This document shows, in pieces, positions 1,480 to 47,245 of a stretch of 64,000 bases of DNA. Position 1 is the first letter of the stretch. Each line of letters starts with the position of its first letter. Both the position numbers and the translations under genes were made by a program. Origin of the DNA: Flavobacterium sp. N502540 (GTDB taxonomy: Bacteria; Bacteroidota; Bacteroidia; Flavobacteriales; Flavobacteriaceae); NCBI RefSeq assembly GCF_025947365.1, contig NZ_CP110012.1:186001-250000 (forward strand), read 5' to 3'. The notes under the pieces are model-generated. The model was not told where the DNA came from. It worked only from the letters and a program-made list of their open reading frames with translations, and ran no database searches.

Positions 1480-2901
1480 CTAATCCTCCTTACTCCCATC
1501 ATCCGCCATTCTCACTAATTTAGGTGTAAATTTAGCCACTACATCCACTAAATCCTCCTGCGCTTTCATCACCTGATGGATATCTTTATAAGCCATTGGC
1601 GCTTCGTCCAGACCTGCCCCGATAAGCGTAACGCCATGATCGCTCAGGATTGATTTCATCTCTGTTGCTGTAATGTTTTTAATCGCCTGAGTTCGGCTCA
1701 TTTGTCTTCCCGCTCCGTGCGAAGCCGAATTGATCGCGTTCTCCTCCCCTTTTCCTCTCACCAAAAATCCCGGTGCGGTCATACTTCCCGGAATGATTCC
1801 CATCACGCCTTTTCCGGCCGGAGTTGCTCCTTTTCTATGCACGATCACTTCTTCGCCGTTCCAGATTTCTTTCCATGCAAAATTATGATGGTTTTCGACT
1901 TTGGCTAAAATCGTCGCTCCTAAAGCACGTTCCATTTTGTTATGGATAATCTCGTGACATGCCGAAGCATAATCTCCCGCCAAATTCATCGCCATCCAGT
2001 ATTCCTGTCCCAGTTGGGTGTTCATATCTAAATAGGCTAAGTTTTTCGCCACTTCCGGAAGTTTACAAACCTCTTTTGCAATTTTAGTATAATGTCCGGC
2101 GATTGTAGCTCCCATTCCTCTTGAACCCGAATGCGTTAACAAAGCGACATATTTTCCTTTTGGAATATTCAATACAGCATCGTCCTGAGCAAACTCCATG
2201 ATTCCGAATTCCACAAAGTGATTTCCACCACCCGAAGATCCTAATTGCGACCAGGCTTTATCTTTTAAGTTTTTCACAAACGGATTCATATTGAAAGTCT
2301 CATTCTCCAAAACCGCATGATCTGATTTGTACTGACCGTGAAATCCGTGGCCCGCTCCAAAAATAGAATTCTTAATCAATTCTTTTTTGAATTTGGCTTC
2401 GTTTTCAAAGTAAAAATCTTCCGGGATATCATAAACCGACAACGCCATTCTACACCCAATATCAACTCCAACACCATACGGAATAATGGCATTTTTTGTG
2501 GCCAGAACTCCGCCAATTGGTAATCCGTAACCCTGATGCGTGTCGGGCATTAAAGCTCCGGCAACGGTAACCGGTAATTTCATAGCTACTTCCATTTGTT
2601 TTCTGGCTCCGTCTTCGATATGATCCAGCCCGTAAGCCGAATACGCGTTTGGATTTTGATTTAAAGCAATGAAATCTTCCGGTTTTTCATTCGATTTTTC
2701 GATTAAAGCAACCGCCAGTTTGCTGAACACTTTATCGTCTATATAATTCTCCGGAGTTTCTAAGACGTTTTTGTAATGAGCAATCATTTCGTCTCTTGTA
2801 AATCCGTTTCTTTTGCTGTTTATTTTTAAGGCAATCCCGATTATTTTTCCTTCCGGAAATCCTAATTCTAATATTTCTGTACCGTTTATTTGTGTTTTCA
2901 T
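1480..2901 (-). CDS. rtcB: RtcB family RNA ligase (3'-phosphate/5'-OH)
   Basis: A 473-aa protein with all RtcB hallmarks. DIGCRM carries the metal-binding Cys150. GGGNHFVEF is at 224-232, HSGSRG at 257-262 and HHNFAWKE at 338-345. SHGAGRQMSRTQA contains His395, the residue expected to carry the GMP. RtcB joins RNA ends bearing 3'-phosphate (or 2',3'-cyclic phosphate) to 5'-OH using GTP and Mn, typically tRNA halves or damaged RNA. The length is usual for the bacterial clade. The gene lies downstream of, and on the same strand as, the RING-like protein and the tRNA-like array. A 428-bp repeat-rich gap and a hairpin at 3290-3322 separate it from the RING gene, so it may have its own promoter. 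Confidence 0.95.
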   Translation of the reverse strand: MKTQINGTEILELGFPEGKIIGIALKINSKRNGFTRDEMIAHYKNVLETPENYIDDKVFSKLAVALIEKSNEKPEDFIALNQNPNAYSAYGLDHIEDGARKQMEVAMKLPVTVAGALMPDTHQGYGLPIGGVLATKNAIIPYGVGVDIGCRMALSVYDIPEDFYFENEAKFKKELIKNSIFGAGHGFHGQYKSDHAVLENETFNMNPFVKNLKDKAWSQLGSSGGGNHFVEFGIMEFAQDDAVLNIPKGKYVALLTHSGSRGMGATIAGHYTKIAKEVCKLPEVAKNLAYLDMNTQLGQEYWMAMNLAGDYASACHEIIHNKMERALGATILAKVENHHNFAWKEIWNGEEVIVHRKGATPAGKGVMGIIPGSMTAPGFLVRGKGEENAINSASHGAGRQMSRTQAIKNITATEMKSILSDHGVTLIGAGLDEAPMAYKDIHQVMKAQEDLVDVVAKFTPKLVRMADDGSKED

Positions 2902-2968
2902 TGTTTCTTTTTTTTTTTAAAGGGGCAAAGTTGCAGAGGTTTATAGGTGCAAAGGTTCTCTACTGCTG

Positions 2969-2987
2969 CGCAGTTATTTTGCGTAGT
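2969..2987. promoter_or_regulatory. copy 1 of shared palindrome (rtcB upstream)
   Basis: CGCAGTTATTTTGCGTAGT lies about 70 bp upstream of the rtcB start. Two related copies sit upstream of the tRNA-like array at 6077 and 6165. The sequence is an imperfect inverted repeat, consensus about ACTACGCAA-N5-TTGCGTAGT, as expected for a dimeric regulator. The regulator itself is not identified. Confidence 0.5.
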
Positions 2988-3131
2988 TTTTATTTCACGC
3001 AGATTTTGCAGATTCGAGCAGATCTAAAAATGATTTGTTATAAATAATCTGCGCTTATCAGCTGAAATCTTTTTAAATCTGCGTGAAACATTAAACCTTT
3101 GAACCTTTACCTCTCTGAACCTCTGTACCTC

Positions 3132-3148
3132 CAGTTATTTTGCGTAGT
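3132..3148. promoter_or_regulatory. copy 2 of shared palindrome (partial)
   Basis: CAGTTATTTTGCGTAGT is the same element as at 2969, lacking the left-most bases of the arm. It is carried on the second of the tandem repeats upstream of rtcB. Confidence 0.4.
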
Positions 3149-3289
3149 TTTTTTTCTCGCAGATTTTGCAGATTCGAGCAGATCTAAAAATGATTTTTAT
3201 AAATAATCTGCGCTTATCAGCAGAAATCTTTTTAAATCTGCGTGAAACATTAAACCTTTGCATCTTTATACCTCCAAACATTGTCCATC

Positions 3290-3329: not shown

Positions 3330-5570
3330 TTAATCAATTAATAATTGTGTCACAACTGCCGGATTCATCGCCCATTGGGCGGTATAAACCTCATCAGCAT
3401 TTTGATCTTCGGTGATTGTTAAACCTTGAGCTTCCGCTTTAAGTTGTAATAAACTACCTATATTCAATTTACTGTTCAATTTGGCAAGCAAAGCCTGAAC
3501 TCCTTTAAAGTCCAAACCTTGTACGACCTGACCTCCGAAAGTCATTTCCAGCCAAACGATTTCTCTTTTGGCTACATCCAAAACTCCAAAGACCAAACCT
3601 TTCGCCACATTCTGCGTCACACGAACCTGATGATCCACACAAGACGGATCGTAAGCAACTCCGGTTTTCTCCGAAATTTTCATCGGGTGTTTACTGTTCA
3701 TCCAACCTACTATCAGATTTGGCGTGATACTTCCGTTGCTGTAGGCATTGCAGGTAAAAGTCACAAACTTAGCTTTGGCTTTTGCCAATTCGTCGATGTT
3801 GATGTTGATATATTCGGCAGTTCCAATTTTATTCGGAATACTTCTCATATCACCACTATGCTGACAGCCCGTAGTCGTCAATCTACTAAACGAACAAATA
3901 TCAGAACGATCTTCGTAGGCAATATGACAGCTTAAATCCATATCCAGATGTTGAGCAGGCAAACCTGCACCCCACTGCATAAACAATCGCACTTCGTTGC
4001 CTTCAACCGGGAAACGCGTTCCCATTAAAGCTACAGGTAAATCCTGAACCGTATCACTTCGATCTCCTATTGAAACCGGAATGTTAAACAATTGCGGATC
4101 GATATAGATAGTTTTATTGGTATTTTTAACCGCTGCGAATCTTTTTTTCATTGCCAAAAGACACAAATCCTCAATCTGATTTTTCATCTCCTCTAACTGC
4201 AATTCGTCATACAAATTCAACAATGCGTTTGGGTTTACTCTTTTATTGGTTCCTCCTAAAGGCTTTACACTTCTTTGTATGTTTTTATCAAAATAATTTG
4301 ACGCATACATGTTCAGCGTAAAGATCAGTCTAGCCGGAACTTTATCGATAATTTCAGAAAAATGAGCAATCGTTTCGTCTGCTCCAAACCAAAGCATATT
4401 CGAAAATAAAGAGCGGGCAAACAAACCCGGACGTTGCTTTAACAACGCAAATGTTTTATCAGCATCAAACTTTAGCCTTGACGAATTTACTTTTCCCTGC
4501 CAAACGTCATATACCTGATTGTAAAATACATCCATTAAAAAATTCAATTTCTCAAATCCTTTTCTTTTGCTGTATTCTGCCAAACGCAAGGCACGGATAA
4601 CACGAACCCACATTCCTCTTTTTGGATGCATCGTTTCGCACATGGCTTCAACTTCCATATCCATATTATTTAACCAGTTGGCAACCATCAAACATTCTTT
4701 TCTTGAATATTTCAATTTCAAATCTTTTTGAGACGCCATTCTCGCCTGCACACTTGTATCCAAAACAGTATGAAAATGCTGTCCATTTTTAGCAGCTCTT
4801 TTAACAATAGTTTTTGGCTCGATGATCTGAAGCATTCCTGTATTCTTAAACCATAAATATCTTAAAATATCCGTTGGTGTTTTCAAAAATTGCGATGCTT
4901 CGTCTTCTTTACCGTTTTCAATCAAAAGATCGATTACAAGCATTAAAGTTTCCTTCATTGCTACCTCGGTTTTTGGTAAAGGCAAGTACTGCATAACCAT
5001 TTTTAAGGTATCTATCTGAGTGGCGTCTAAAGCGGTTTTGGATTGCAATAACGATATATAGAAATCATTTAAATCTTTTTCGGACCACAATTCCAGCATT
5101 TTTAATTTGCTTCCCTGTCCCATTTTTTCGATTTTACCAAATTCAAAAGGGGTTCCACAGAAGGGACAACCGTTGTATCTTTCTAACGGAAAAGTATTAT
5201 CGGGAATTATATGTCCGCAAGATAAAGTTGTTCCGTTTTTAGTTTTAAAAACATTTCCGAAATACGTAATAATATGATCCAAAACAGATTCTCCTGTTGG
5301 AACATTCCATTCTTTTACCAATGGTGTCCAGTTTTTATCAGTTCCTAAAACTTCTCTCAAAACTTCTAAAACCTCAACTTTATAAGTCGAACTTACATTG
5401 TTTAAAGCATGAAGTAAGGATTCTGAAAATGTAAATCCAAGTTTTGAAACATTGGCTAACAAAACTGAAGTTGTTCCTGATAAATTTTTAACGTCATTCT
5501 TAATCATTTCTGATGGAATGAAAATAGCGTTCTGACGTAAACTGATTTTTAACAATGTTGTTGTTTTCAT
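3330..5570 (-). CDS. RING-like zinc-site protein with TerD-like C-terminus (MXAN_6230/SCO0854-type)
   Basis: 746 aa, no signal peptide and no membrane segment. A zinc site is formed by C118-x-H120 and C135-P-F-C138, half of a RING-like treble clef. The middle (about 230-460) is alpha-helical and contains RPGLFARSL and DKVPARLIFTL, which I associate with the family called MXAN_6230/SCO0854 RING domain protein. The C-terminal part (about 520-720) includes VRLFMQWG, HLDMDLSCHI and a beta-rich stretch to MTFGGQVVQG, resembling the TerD fold. Function is unknown. It sits between a tRNA-like RNA array, whose last unit ends 29 bp before this ATG, and rtcB on the same strand. That supports a role in RNA damage sensing or as a scaffold, which is inference. 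Confidence 0.6.
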   Translation of the reverse strand: MKTTTLLKISLRQNAIFIPSEMIKNDVKNLSGTTSVLLANVSKLGFTFSESLLHALNNVSSTYKVEVLEVLREVLGTDKNWTPLVKEWNVPTGESVLDHIITYFGNVFKTKNGTTLSCGHIIPDNTFPLERYNGCPFCGTPFEFGKIEKMGQGSKLKMLELWSEKDLNDFYISLLQSKTALDATQIDTLKMVMQYLPLPKTEVAMKETLMLVIDLLIENGKEDEASQFLKTPTDILRYLWFKNTGMLQIIEPKTIVKRAAKNGQHFHTVLDTSVQARMASQKDLKLKYSRKECLMVANWLNNMDMEVEAMCETMHPKRGMWVRVIRALRLAEYSKRKGFEKLNFLMDVFYNQVYDVWQGKVNSSRLKFDADKTFALLKQRPGLFARSLFSNMLWFGADETIAHFSEIIDKVPARLIFTLNMYASNYFDKNIQRSVKPLGGTNKRVNPNALLNLYDELQLEEMKNQIEDLCLLAMKKRFAAVKNTNKTIYIDPQLFNIPVSIGDRSDTVQDLPVALMGTRFPVEGNEVRLFMQWGAGLPAQHLDMDLSCHIAYEDRSDICSFSRLTTTGCQHSGDMRSIPNKIGTAEYININIDELAKAKAKFVTFTCNAYSNGSITPNLIVGWMNSKHPMKISEKTGVAYDPSCVDHQVRVTQNVAKGLVFGVLDVAKREIVWLEMTFGGQVVQGLDFKGVQALLAKLNSKLNIGSLLQLKAEAQGLTITEDQNADEVYTAQWAMNPAVVTQLLID

Positions 5571-5599: not shown

Positions 5600-5640
5600 G
5601 TGCTTCTGATTCTACCTAAAAGATCTGAAGTAAGAAGCAC
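5600..5640 (-). ncRNA. array unit E, stem-loop next to the RING-like gene start
   Basis: After GGTCAA, the strand GTGCTTCT (5640-5633) pairs perfectly with AGAAGCAC (5607-5600), enclosing ACTTCAGATC and an internal GGTAGAATC. There is no clear T-loop. The stem ends 29 bp upstream of the ATG at 5570, so it could also affect translation of that gene. Confidence 0.55.
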
Positions 5641-5664
5641 TTGACCTTAAATTGGAGTGTAATA

Positions 5665-5714
5665 GACTAACTAAGCTAAAATGGAGCGGGCGACCGCGAA
5701 GAAGTAAGTTAATC
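5665..5714 (-). ncRNA. array unit D, stem-loop
   Basis: GATTAAC (5714-5708) pairs with GTTAGTC (5671-5665) over seven pairs including one G-U. Inside are a small GC hairpin, GCGG-TCGC-CCGC, and TTTTAGCTTAGTTAG, which recalls a tRNA D-arm start (TAGCTCAGTTGG). It is the only notably GC-rich spot in the array. Confidence 0.5.
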
Positions 5715-5740
5715 TTGACCCTCGTTTATTAATGATAATT

Positions 5741-5796
5741 TTAAAACTTGTTCGGACTCGAACCGAAAGTTACCAATTGTCTGAAGTAAGTTTTAA
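5741..5796 (-). ncRNA. array unit C, mini-tRNA with T-arm and D-loop-like sequence
   Basis: A nine-pair terminal stem, TTAAAACTT (5796-5788) with AAGTTTTAA (5749-5741), closes a 56-nt element. It contains a canonical T-arm, TTCGG-TTCGAGT-CCGAA (5767-5751), and just before it AATTGGTAAC, which looks like a tRNA D-loop with its GG pair. An anticodon arm is missing. The element resembles an acceptor/T-arm minihelix. Confidence 0.65.
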
Positions 5797-5811
5797 TTGA
5801 TCATCAATAGT

Positions 5812-5928
5812 GAAGCAGATGGGATTCGAACCCACGACCCGGACATTAGAAGTGTACGAAGTAAGTTTTGATTGACCTTTTGCCGATAATCTCAAAACTA
5901 CCTGCTCTAACCGCTGAGCTACTGCCTC
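5812..5928 (-). ncRNA. tRNA-Arg(UCU)-like RNA interrupted by a 45-nt insertion
   Basis: On the minus strand: a 7-bp acceptor stem GAGGCAG/CTGCTTC with one G-U, TA, D-stem GCTC/GAGC with loop AGCGGTTA, anticodon stem GTACA/TGTCC (one T-C mismatch) with loop CTTCTAA (anticodon TCT), variable loop GGGTC, and T-arm GTGGG-TTCGAAT-CCCAT. Without the insertion the total is 72 nt, a normal tRNA length. The extra 45 nt lie between the D-stem and the anticodon stem. They contain a second hairpin (GTTTTGA/TCAAAAC) and one GGTCAA-N7-TTACTTC motif. It is not an ordinary functional tRNA gene unless the insertion is removed. Confidence 0.75.
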
Positions 5929-6076
5929 TATTATGATTGTAAAATAAAAAGGTAATGGTGTAAGTGTGTACGTTGGAAAGTTTTCTGAAGTAACTCAAAC
6001 TTGACCTGTTTTATTCTTTATTTAATTTCTATGAACGTTTGTTTTTTATTTCTGAACAAAGATTTCAAAACCAATA

Positions 6077-6095
6077 CGCAGTTATTTTGCGTAGT
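6077..6095. promoter_or_regulatory. copy 3 of shared palindrome (upstream of the array)
   Basis: CGCAGTTATTTTGCGTAGT is identical over 19 bases to copy 1 upstream of rtcB. Its presence upstream of both transcription units suggests common control. Confidence 0.5.
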
Positions 6096-6164
6096 AAAAT
6101 TTCTATTTCATTTTTTAGAAATACTATTTGTTTTATTTCTTGAGCAAAGATTTCAAAACCACTA

Positions 6165-6183
6165 CGCAATTATTTTGCGCAGT
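6165..6183. promoter_or_regulatory. copy 4 of shared palindrome
   Basis: CGCAATTATTTTGCGCAGT, preceded by ACTA. With its flanks the arms ACTACGCAA and TTGCGCAGT pair with one mismatch, making this the most symmetrical copy. Confidence 0.5.
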
Positions 6184-7141: not shown

Positions 7142-8179
7142 ATGTCACAAAACAAAAATGCCTTAATTCGGTACAAAACAATAGACAAATGTCTTCAAAA
7201 CAAATACCGGCAATGGACTTTAGACGACTTAATTGAATGTTGCTCTGATGCTTTGTTTGAATACGAAGGCCGTGCCAACCCCATCAGCAAGCGAACCATT
7301 CAGATGGATATTCAGCTCATGCGAAGTGAAAAACTGGGGTACAATGCCCCCATTGTGGTATATGATAAAAAGTACTATAAATACGAAGACGACGAATTCA
7401 CCATAACCGATATACCCTTAACCGAAACGGACATGAATGTGCTCACCGAGACCGTTTCGATGTTAAAGCAGTTTAAAGATTTCTCTCTCTTTAATGATGT
7501 ATCCGATATTCTACAGCGTTTGGAGGATAAAATCTACGCCGAAAAATCGCATACTAAACCCGTTATCTATCTCGACAAAAATGAAAAACTAAAAGGACTT
7601 CATTATCTGGATGAGATTTATCAGGCCATCATCAAAAAGGTGGCTTTGGTTATTACCTATAAATCGTTTAAATCTCAGGAAGAAAGCAAATTTCATTTTC
7701 ACCCTTTTATTTTAAAGGAATTCAATAACCGTTGGTTTTTGGTAGGAAAGAAAAAAAGCTCACAACCGATTACCAATTTAGCCCTGGACAGAATTATATC
7801 CATAGATTACGATTTCAACATTCCCTATTTAGAAGAAAACTTTGATGCAGAGCTCTTTTATAAAAACGTAATTGGGGTAACCGTTAATACAGGTTTACAA
7901 CCCAAAAAAATCGAACTTTGGATAGACGCAACCAACGCTCCTTATGTGATAACCAAACCTCTGCATCATACACAGCGGCTCATTAAAGAAAATGACGACA
8001 AAAGTATTATCGTTCACTTGTTCATTTCTCCAAATTACGAAATGGAACGTATGCTTTTAGGATTTGGCGACGGGATCGAAATCATCAAACCTGAAAATCT
8101 AAGAAATAGAGTAAAAGCTATACTTCAAAAGGCAATTTCAAGGTATGAACCCGAAAACGCCATTGAATTAAAGCCATAA
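7142..8179 (+). CDS. WYL-domain transcriptional regulator with N-terminal HTH
   Basis: 345 aa. The N-terminus (about 5-75) has the winged-helix pattern of YafY-type regulators: LIRYKTIDKCL, then DLIECCSDALFEY, then SKRTIQMDIQLMRS, where the recognition helix should be. The WYL domain (about 150-230) includes VALVITYKSF and KFHFHPFILKEFNNRWFLVG. A C-terminal extension (240-345) matches the usual WCX part. WYL domains sense ligands, in some cases nucleic acid. The start at 7142 lies just after the structured repeat. Being close to the RtcB locus it is a candidate regulator of it, but that rests on position only. Confidence 0.85.
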   Translation: MSQNKNALIRYKTIDKCLQNKYRQWTLDDLIECCSDALFEYEGRANPISKRTIQMDIQLMRSEKLGYNAPIVVYDKKYYKYEDDEFTITDIPLTETDMNVLTETVSMLKQFKDFSLFNDVSDILQRLEDKIYAEKSHTKPVIYLDKNEKLKGLHYLDEIYQAIIKKVALVITYKSFKSQEESKFHFHPFILKEFNNRWFLVGKKKSSQPITNLALDRIISIDYDFNIPYLEENFDAELFYKNVIGVTVNTGLQPKKIELWIDATNAPYVITKPLHHTQRLIKENDDKSIIVHLFISPNYEMERMLLGFGDGIEIIKPENLRNRVKAILQKAISRYEPENAIELKP

Positions 8180-42250: not shown

Positions 42251-42335
42251 AGAAGCTAATTCCTGCTGTTCGCTATATCTTTTATGCCGAACCCCGGCAC
42301 AAAAGGATACCGCTGCCATCAGGGCTAGCGCATTC
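42251..42335 (-). repeat. dispersed structured element, copy 2
   Basis: On the minus strand: GCGCTAGCCCTGATGG, then GCGGTATCCTTTTGTG, a GC loop, ATAAAAGATATAGCGAA and CAGCAGGAATTAGC. The core GCGGTATCCTTTTGTG and AAAAGATATAGC match copy 1 at 7041-7128. A 43-codon frame runs through it (42212-42343) but is better explained by the repeat. The rest of the 42093-42426 gap is AT-rich with no visible gene. Confidence 0.65.
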
Positions 42336-46844: not shown

Positions 46845-47238
46845 GGGGTCGACTGGTTTTGACAGCAAGTCGAATTGAAAAGTAAGCACGTCGAGCATTG
46901 AGACCTTGCTCGTAAATATAAGATCTTACAATTTTACACGGCGAAAATAACTACGCTTTAGCTGCATAATCCGAATTATAGTAAGATTGCGCCACGTTCC
47001 TACAAGGTAGGAAAGCTGGATTCTCCTTGAAAGCCTTGGTTTGTGGCGGTCAGTACAGGGGAACCGTAAAAATAAACCTAGATTTCCATGAGCTTCGGGT
47101 GGATATCGAAATTAAGAAGATAAGTGTTGAGTGGTTGTTCCTGACCTAGCTTAACATCGAAAATCCAATCAGGAAATAAACGTGTAGAAAGCTCTTTAGT
47201 TGCTTGTTTGGACCCGGGTTCGATTCCCGGCGACTCCA
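46845..47238 (+). ncRNA. ssrA: transfer-messenger RNA (tmRNA)
   Basis: The 5' end GGGGTCGACTGG and the 3' end CGACTCCA form the tRNA-like acceptor: GGGGTCG pairs with CGACTCC (one G-U). GGTTCGATTCCCGG supplies the T-arm. The tag reading frame runs 46940-46966, with stop TAA at 46967: Gly-Glu-Asn-Asn-Tyr-Ala-Leu-Ala-Ala, a Bacteroidota-type tag ending in the usual ALAA degron. tmRNA with SmpB rescues stalled ribosomes and marks the unfinished peptide for proteolysis. The 3' CCA is not encoded (ACAA follows the acceptor). A terminator hairpin with ATCGCAATAATC/GATCATTGCGAT arms follows at 47246-47281. Confidence 0.95.
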
Positions 47239-47245
47239 CAAAAAA

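Follow-up and report, generated by a model that had tools for sequence, protein, structure and literature searches.

What is the array of short repeated motifs that precedes an RNA ligase gene in Flavobacterium sp. N502540, and what might it do there? The window analysed here, 64,000 nucleotides (nt) of contig NZ_CP110012.1 (positions 186,001 to 250,000), carries five minus-strand units with the pattern G(G/A)TCAA-N7-TTACTTC upstream of a gene for a 746-amino-acid (aa) protein and of rtcB. The locus has the look of a branch of the Ro60/Y-RNA systems that has so far gone unrecognised, possibly helping cells to cope with damaged tRNAs. We regard it as fairly probable that it encodes a divergent Ro60/Y-RNA ribonucleoprotein (RNP) system within an RNA-repair regulon, including the docking, regulation and repair steps set out below.

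A preliminary description of this DNA had reported five repeated motif units beside RtcB and a zinc-site protein with a TerD-like end. These units are real. The exact string TCAA-N7-TTACTTC occurs eight times in the 5.41-Mb genome and five of the occurrences lie at the array; with one mismatch allowed, no genome-wide excess over a reversed control was seen. The N7 heptamer pairs with a second heptamer that precedes xATTAYC, and the A preceding this second heptamer pairs with the first T of TTACTTC. The partner lies downstream in units 1, 3, 4 and 5, which leaves the GGTCAA/ATTAYC end of their stem open. In unit 2 the partner lies upstream; a 7-nt loop closes that end of the stem, whose TTACTTC end opens into a tRNA. 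Two covariance models, R1 for the direct and R2 for the permuted units, were used to score them:

5951..6006, minus strand: unit 1, direct Y-type stem, GGTCAA-GTTTGAG-TTACTTC ... CTTACAC-CATTACC, 6/7 pairs; R1 54.6 bits, E 8.8e-11 in the window
5811..5928, minus strand: tRNA-Arg(UCU)-like RNA hosting unit 2 in its anticodon arm; RF00005 45.7 bits; acceptor, D and T arms normal
5858..5898, minus strand: unit 2, circularly permuted stem, GTTTTGA-GATTATC-loop-GGTCAA-TCAAAAC-TTACTTC, 7/7 pairs; R2 59.9 bits, E 2.3e-8 in the window, the unit itself being part of the R2 model
5734..5802, minus strand: unit 3, direct stem whose loop holds a T-arm-like hairpin, TTCGG-TTCGAGT-CCGAA; R1 51.3 bits
5658..5720, minus strand: unit 4, direct stem, 7/7 pairs; R1 41.6 bits
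5593..5646, minus strand: unit 5, direct stem; R1 54.7 bits; 22 nt between its end and the start codon of the 746-aa gene

What had been described as tRNA-like structures are thus Y-RNA-type stems. Of the five, unit 2 alone is hosted by a tRNA-like RNA, which has D, T and acceptor arms. A plain tRNA array was ruled out by the presence of a single tRNA, and known Rfam elements other than tRNA were rejected with matches at chance level; no Y RNA or YrlA model reached its gathering score in the window. The energy signal alone was modest, with a fold z of -1.87 for the whole array and -1.32 to -4.45 for single units (unit 1 -1.32, which is not unusual, unit 3 -4.45, unit 4 -1.53 and unit 5 -2.81).

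The 746-aa gene was found at 373 places in GTDB contigs, Flavobacterium johnsoniae CI04 (L068) being among the matches, and our locus counts rest on the best 80, of which 60 are titled Flavobacterium and the others Aquimarina, Tenacibaculum, Emticicia, Taibaiella, Cytophaga, Microscilla, Saprospiraceae and further Bacteroidota. The only stretch scanned was the upstream 1.3 kb on the strand of the gene; units are present there in 80/80 loci, at least three in 78/80, with a range of 1-7 per locus. In this respect the earlier proposal is supported: we are dealing with a locus for RNA repair, and its structured RNA is conserved along with this protein family. A partner heptamer was found for 374 of 378 pattern matches, those passing the pairing threshold by which units were chosen, and 286 of the 374 have the direct (unpermuted, free-stem) form. 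With strict unit ends, the N7 spacer has length 7 in 353 cases and 8 in 5. At loci L106, L108 and L117 units are nested, the second one, with ATACTTC, lying inside the loop of the first.

The direct alignment comprised 51 of 69 diverse units and four window units (55 together), 18 units, many with long loops or doubtful partners, having been dropped by eye before counting and two window units having entered with ends 1-4 bases off. The permuted alignment contained all 18 permuted units of the diverse list and the window's own. Among the 55 direct units, 95.0% of cells are paired, both sides vary in 8 of 11 pairs, and covariation scores 0.685 versus 0.184 when shuffled and at most 0.174 with slid partners. 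Furthermore, the outer stem extends by about four pairs (0.81, 0.62, 0.72 and 0.67 paired versus 0.44-0.47 shuffled; 132 distinct flanks). The RNA structure of the units is established by this covariation. A functionless tRNA pseudogene with repeats, left by chance or decay, would fit the redundancy of the tRNA in the genome, yet phylum-wide conservation and co-occurrence with one gene oppose it and covariation in effect refutes it, leaving it a negligible probability.

Across the genome, R1 found this locus as its sole match (150 of 7031 first-look candidates scored). According to a protein search, the 746-aa gene is carried by 35/249 genomes of the genus, 4/199 of a family sample and 4/198 of a phylum sample. 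R1 (44 first-look candidates scored per genome) was positive in 20 of 121 genus genomes, all 20 of which carry the gene, and the 15 further carriers among the 35 apparently lie outside the 121-genome sample, judging by their numbering.

Why should one of the units sit in a tRNA? Joining the flanks of unit 2 at 5901|5855 yields the anticodon arm GGACA-CTTCTAA-TGTCC with anticodon UCU, and such joining restores 5/5 anticodon-stem pairs in 34 of 42 usable hosts (those of the 67 distinct flank pairs in which a D and a T arm can be recognised), 28 of which also have U33; shuffled flanks gave 5/5 stem pairs in 5.5% and stem plus U33 in 2.1%. Among the hosts 15 different stem pairs are found, meaning that the two halves covary with the insert between them. 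As a rule the break comes after position 28 or 29, and in other cases in or after the loop. Some relatives have several tRNAs each with an oversized insert (two in L114 and L124, four in L120, where one sub-threshold YrlA match was also seen, E 8.9e-4). The host is spare, because ordinary genes for tRNA-Arg(UCU) (two) and tRNA-Lys(UUU) (four) are present in the genome stretches read. Clusters of 6 to 15 ordinary tRNA genes lie upstream on the same strand in 7/80 loci, whereas 68/80 have no such gene there, and these clusters suggest a supply of spare tRNA. At L108, L111, L117, L126 and L127, 7 to 15 ordinary tRNA genes of many specificities precede the array. Weak genes resembling tRNA-Gly(TCC) (~30-33 bits) recur beside ordinary tRNAs at 31.8-32.5 kb and 39.5-40.1 kb of the source genome (L131).

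Restoration of the anticodon stem and covariation of the halves would also be expected if unit 2 were a tRNA intron, the 45-nt insert (5900-5856) being excised by a nuclease or by the RNA itself and the halves joined by RtcB into a working tRNA-Arg(UCU), with the remaining units as further processing sites. RtcB joins such tRNA-half ends in archaea and animals, and its gene adjoins the array. Nevertheless, the same module stands as an unpermuted free stem in most units, the number of spare nucleotides at both joints varies, U33 is missing from 6/34 loops, RtcB is often out of view at the loci, and the product is not needed, at least two ordinary tRNA-Arg(UCU) genes existing elsewhere. In Ro60-linked YrlA-type RNAs, read by eye, this arm carries the module too, and there it is a stem and no intron. 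The RtcB-spliced introns of archaea and animals share the insert in the anticodon arm and a nearby RtcB, whereas the module here is free-standing elsewhere and no nuclease is known. On balance we find the intron improbable. There is a slim chance that a Y-type stem in a tRNA is both docking handle and removable intron, that is, a bacterial tRNA intron ligated by protein; if so, excision and resealing by RtcB would turn a docked, silent tRNA functional and thereby report ligase activity, and it would reveal the route by which tRNAs gave rise to circularly permuted YrlA RNAs.

The Ro60/Y-RNA reading draws on a comparison with TROVE loci. No TROVE gene was found in the source genome (best match E 0.171, below cut-off); 13/198 Bacteroidota genomes have one, none of them overlapping the 4/198 with the 746-aa gene. 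Downstream of 10/13 TROVE genes lie 3 to 6 TACTTC cores, and at TROVE loci a matching heptamer accompanies 25 of 42 [A/T]TACTTC sites, versus 21% with shuffled heptamers. Rfam reported YrlA or Deinococcus_Y_RNA (consensus GGuCaCGG-UUaCuuC) in 11/12 TROVE loci, every match below gathering. The units here share with the Ro60-linked Y RNAs a 7-bp helix beside UACUUC. Furthermore, the YrlA-type order at TROVE loci (stem, TTACTTC, T arm, loop-closed acceptor stem, D arm, stem) is, read from another start, the order of unit 2 and its tRNA. An anticodon-stem remnant (ATG/CAT, ACA/TGT, ACG/CGT) was seen by eye in L178, L180, L182 and L183 and was unclean in L174 and L176. The Ro60-linked Y-RNA-type arrays of Bacteroidota downstream of TROVE (L174, L176-L184) are below Rfam thresholds where scanned. 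In the vertebrate Ro60 site, according to PMC4726728, a helix of seven pairs carries one bulged C that faces a bulge of three nucleotides. The unit sequence permits a similar GGU-C-AA/xA-UU-AYC arrangement, at positions too invariant to prove it, while minimum free energy folds show an open internal loop.

The protein side of the locus consists of the following genes:

3330..5570, minus strand: 746-aa protein gene, with an N-terminal zinc site, a predicted Ro60-like helical domain (~155-500) and a C-terminal TerD-like domain (~520-690)
1480..2901, minus strand: rtcB, RNA ligase; PF01139 E 1.1e-82

For the predicted fold of the central helical domain, Ro60/Rsr ranks first among solved structures, which suggests that the 746-aa protein may be a Ro60 analogue. 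The partner had been described as RING-like and not TROVE; it indeed lacks a TROVE profile match, although its helical domain resembles Ro60 in fold. A TerD-like domain takes the place of the C-terminal vWA domain of TROVE/Ro60. The protein shares a profile match with the MXAN_6230/SCO0854 RING family (NF041916, residues 11-682, E 1.3e-35), its 122.9 bits being far below the family cut-off of 600 bits; a literature search found no paper naming SCO0854 or MXAN_6230. Full-length Foldseek matches were discarded as low-probability chance matches, a sequence search against solved structures gave three weak rows, none relevant, and padloc assigned no family to the 746-aa protein or RtcB. The protein family has at least 4351 database members at E 0.001 (7997 candidates scored). 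In a Flavobacteriaceae metagenome-assembled genome (L046:7401-10334), a 977-aa protein is encoded downstream of the Ro60-like gene.

Several results weigh against this kinship. TROVE (PF05731) is not among the families hit by 27 members at E 1, and hhalign against TROVE gave 0.1-0.15%, that is, no similarity between the sequence profiles. R1 run on TROVE loci did not detect the Ro60-linked RNAs, which speaks against identity with Y RNAs; it misses them owing to a different sequence on the far side of their stem. Finally, splicing accounts for the kept anticodon stems more directly than an RNP does, but leaves the free-standing units, the parallel with YrlA and the loci lacking RtcB unexplained.

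Homologues also occur beyond the Bacteroidota chromosomes. Bacteroidota plasmid homologues from Hymenobacter and Segatella have units. As an independent case, Rhodococcus phage Weasels2 encodes a homologue, 24% identical across 55% of the query, with RtcB and five tRNA genes nearby and four units GG(A/C)T(C/T)AA-N7-TTACTTC within 388 nt downstream; the evidence there lies in the exact pattern T(C/T)AA-N7-TTACTTC, a looser form of which is expected 0.04 times per locus strand in mononucleotide shuffles. One of these units has a T arm, closed acceptor and D arm with a sub-threshold YrlA match (E 0.097), and the best R1 match is at E 0.0026. TTCCTTC cores lie near the Variovorax, Niallia and gut-phage homologues; with shuffled heptamers as control, pairing favours Niallia only (2/2 versus 0.56) and leaves Variovorax unsupported (1/2 versus 1.41), and the heptamer controls are weak for the gut phage (4/4 versus 3.20) and Weasels2 (4/4 versus 2.67). 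The Variovorax homologue adjoins rtcR. In the gut phage (L205:1300-2096), four TTCCTTC cores precede the 22%-identical homologue, along with tRNA genes and a tmRNA call. One Deinococcus and one Streptomyces homologue had no units in the stretches read. Distant phage homologues amount to three records in the phages collection, and of 13 pattern stretches found on scanning viral_contigs, none was a relative.

The position of the units bears on a further alternative, in which the array is a cis-acting leader in the 746-aa mRNA through which the protein or the state of tRNA controls translation. All 80 Bacteroidota loci have units upstream on the gene's strand, and unit 5 ends just ahead of the start codon. 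On the other hand, the Weasels2 units lie downstream, as do the RNAs beside TROVE, unit number varies across loci, and a full tRNA with normal arms would be superfluous in a leader, which we therefore rate as very unlikely.

A common palindrome connects the array with rtcB:

6162..6182, strand not assigned: palindrome CTGCGCAAAATAATTGCGTA, putative operator upstream of the array
6075..6094, strand not assigned: palindrome CTACGCAAAATAACTGCGTA, putative operator closest to the array
2966..2986, strand not assigned: the same palindrome motif, upstream of rtcB
7142..8179, plus strand: WYL/WCX-domain regulator (PF13280, PF25583), candidate reader of the palindrome

CTRCGCA-N7-TGCGYA has five genome sites, three of them at the locus (two before the array, one before rtcB), and the reversed pattern has zero. 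A looser form occurs within 1.5 kb upstream in 73/80 loci, before 32/36 downstream rtcB genes and within 300 nt of 9/13 TROVE genes, with zero occurrences in 176 kb of gene bodies. The other two genome sites (L194 ~3842, L195 ~4044) precede uncharacterised genes, possibly further regulon members; one of these stretches has a PDC-S39 candidate defence match. At ~2990-3250, between rtcB and the 746-aa gene, are two near-identical intergenic copies around cgcagattttgcagattcgagcagatc. Elsewhere, the window holds a tmRNA (46845-47239, tag GENNYALAA) and a Flavo-1 RNA (42255-42330).

The earlier link of the RNA to RtcB holds at this locus and only partly beyond it. In a tblastn census with one or two Pfam-named representatives per gene, so that counts are lower bounds, the 80 loci gave RtcB in 38, Rnl1 in 19 and Rnl2 in 3; at least one ligase is present in 60, and Rnl1 or Rnl2 in 22 loci other than the 38. 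The constant partner of the units is thus the 746-aa protein, not RtcB. Further neighbours are PNKP (10), RlaP (13), RNase T-like (9), bpMoxR (6) and Band 7 (3), and a WYL homologue was seen in 55/80 loci and 7/13 TROVE loci. Pfam named neither RtcA nor RtcR among five scanned window proteins, and no genome search for either was made. A second RtcB gene of the source genome (L163:2849-4237; 4.07 Mb) lies near a protein with an RF-1 domain, which resembles the known RtcB/PrfH pairing.

How might these parts work together? In the Ro60/Y-RNA reading, the five units would be Y-RNA-type docking stems for the 746-aa RING/Ro60-like/TerD protein, which might hold several of them, with tRNA bodies as the effector side. 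Unit 2 and its tRNA would be YrlA circularly permuted, the stem occupying the same arm in both. YrlA has open stem ends and a loop that joins the ends of its tRNA part, whereas the unit 2 RNA has open tRNA ends and a loop that closes the stem. Upon tRNA cleavage, a regulator, perhaps the neighbouring WYL protein, would alter the palindromic promoters of the array/746-aa gene and rtcB; the RNP would collect or guard damaged tRNA, and RtcB (elsewhere Rnl1/PNKP or Rnl2) would reseal it. Binding, induction by tRNA damage and this division of labour are what we infer. The tRNA-like parts could alternatively be decoys and not tethers, the RNP offering cleavable or uncleavable loops, often UUU or UCU, to anticodon nucleases acting as toxins. 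Anticodon hairpins are kept despite a redundant tRNA, and the joined loops are CTTTTAA in 12/34 and CTTCTAA in 4/34; a similar idea has been raised for YrlA in Salmonella, according to PMC7790460. Four of the five units here, however, have no anticodon loop, and loops vary in other lineages. A decoy role in place of tethering is rather unlikely, and it would be compatible with the RNP as its effector step.

If the Ro60/Y-RNA reading is right, the principle reaches well past TROVE genes to this protein family, and a small regulon whose RNA targets are defined ties the RNP to repair by RtcB, Rnl1/PNKP and Rnl2. It would also supply natural hybrids of tRNA and Y RNA, in either circular permutation, by which a tRNA origin of Y RNAs becomes testable. 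A literature search, with subscription papers mostly outside its scope, found no description of the combination; comparative RNA-repair work may describe part of it.

Among known systems, the closest comparison is with the rsr-yrlBA-rtcBA operons, in which Ro60/Rsr sits with Y RNAs, as described in PMC7790460. Both have more than one RNA at a locus, these RNAs being small, structured and in part tRNA-like, together with a nearby RtcB and a protein of ring type (in our case a predicted one). They differ in that the 746-aa protein has no TROVE match, TerD replaces vWA and a zinc site is added, and in that the Bacteroidota loci have a WYL neighbour and palindrome, not RtcR, with the RNAs upstream of the gene. 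Like YrlA (RF02553) and Deinococcus_Y_RNA (RF01053), the RNAs have a helix followed by UACUUC, and the tRNA-borne form (unit 2) combines D, T and acceptor arms with a stem placed in the anticodon arm; unlike them, this form is permuted, with open tRNA ends, a closed stem, a kept anticodon hairpin and a GGUCAA/AUUAYC side.
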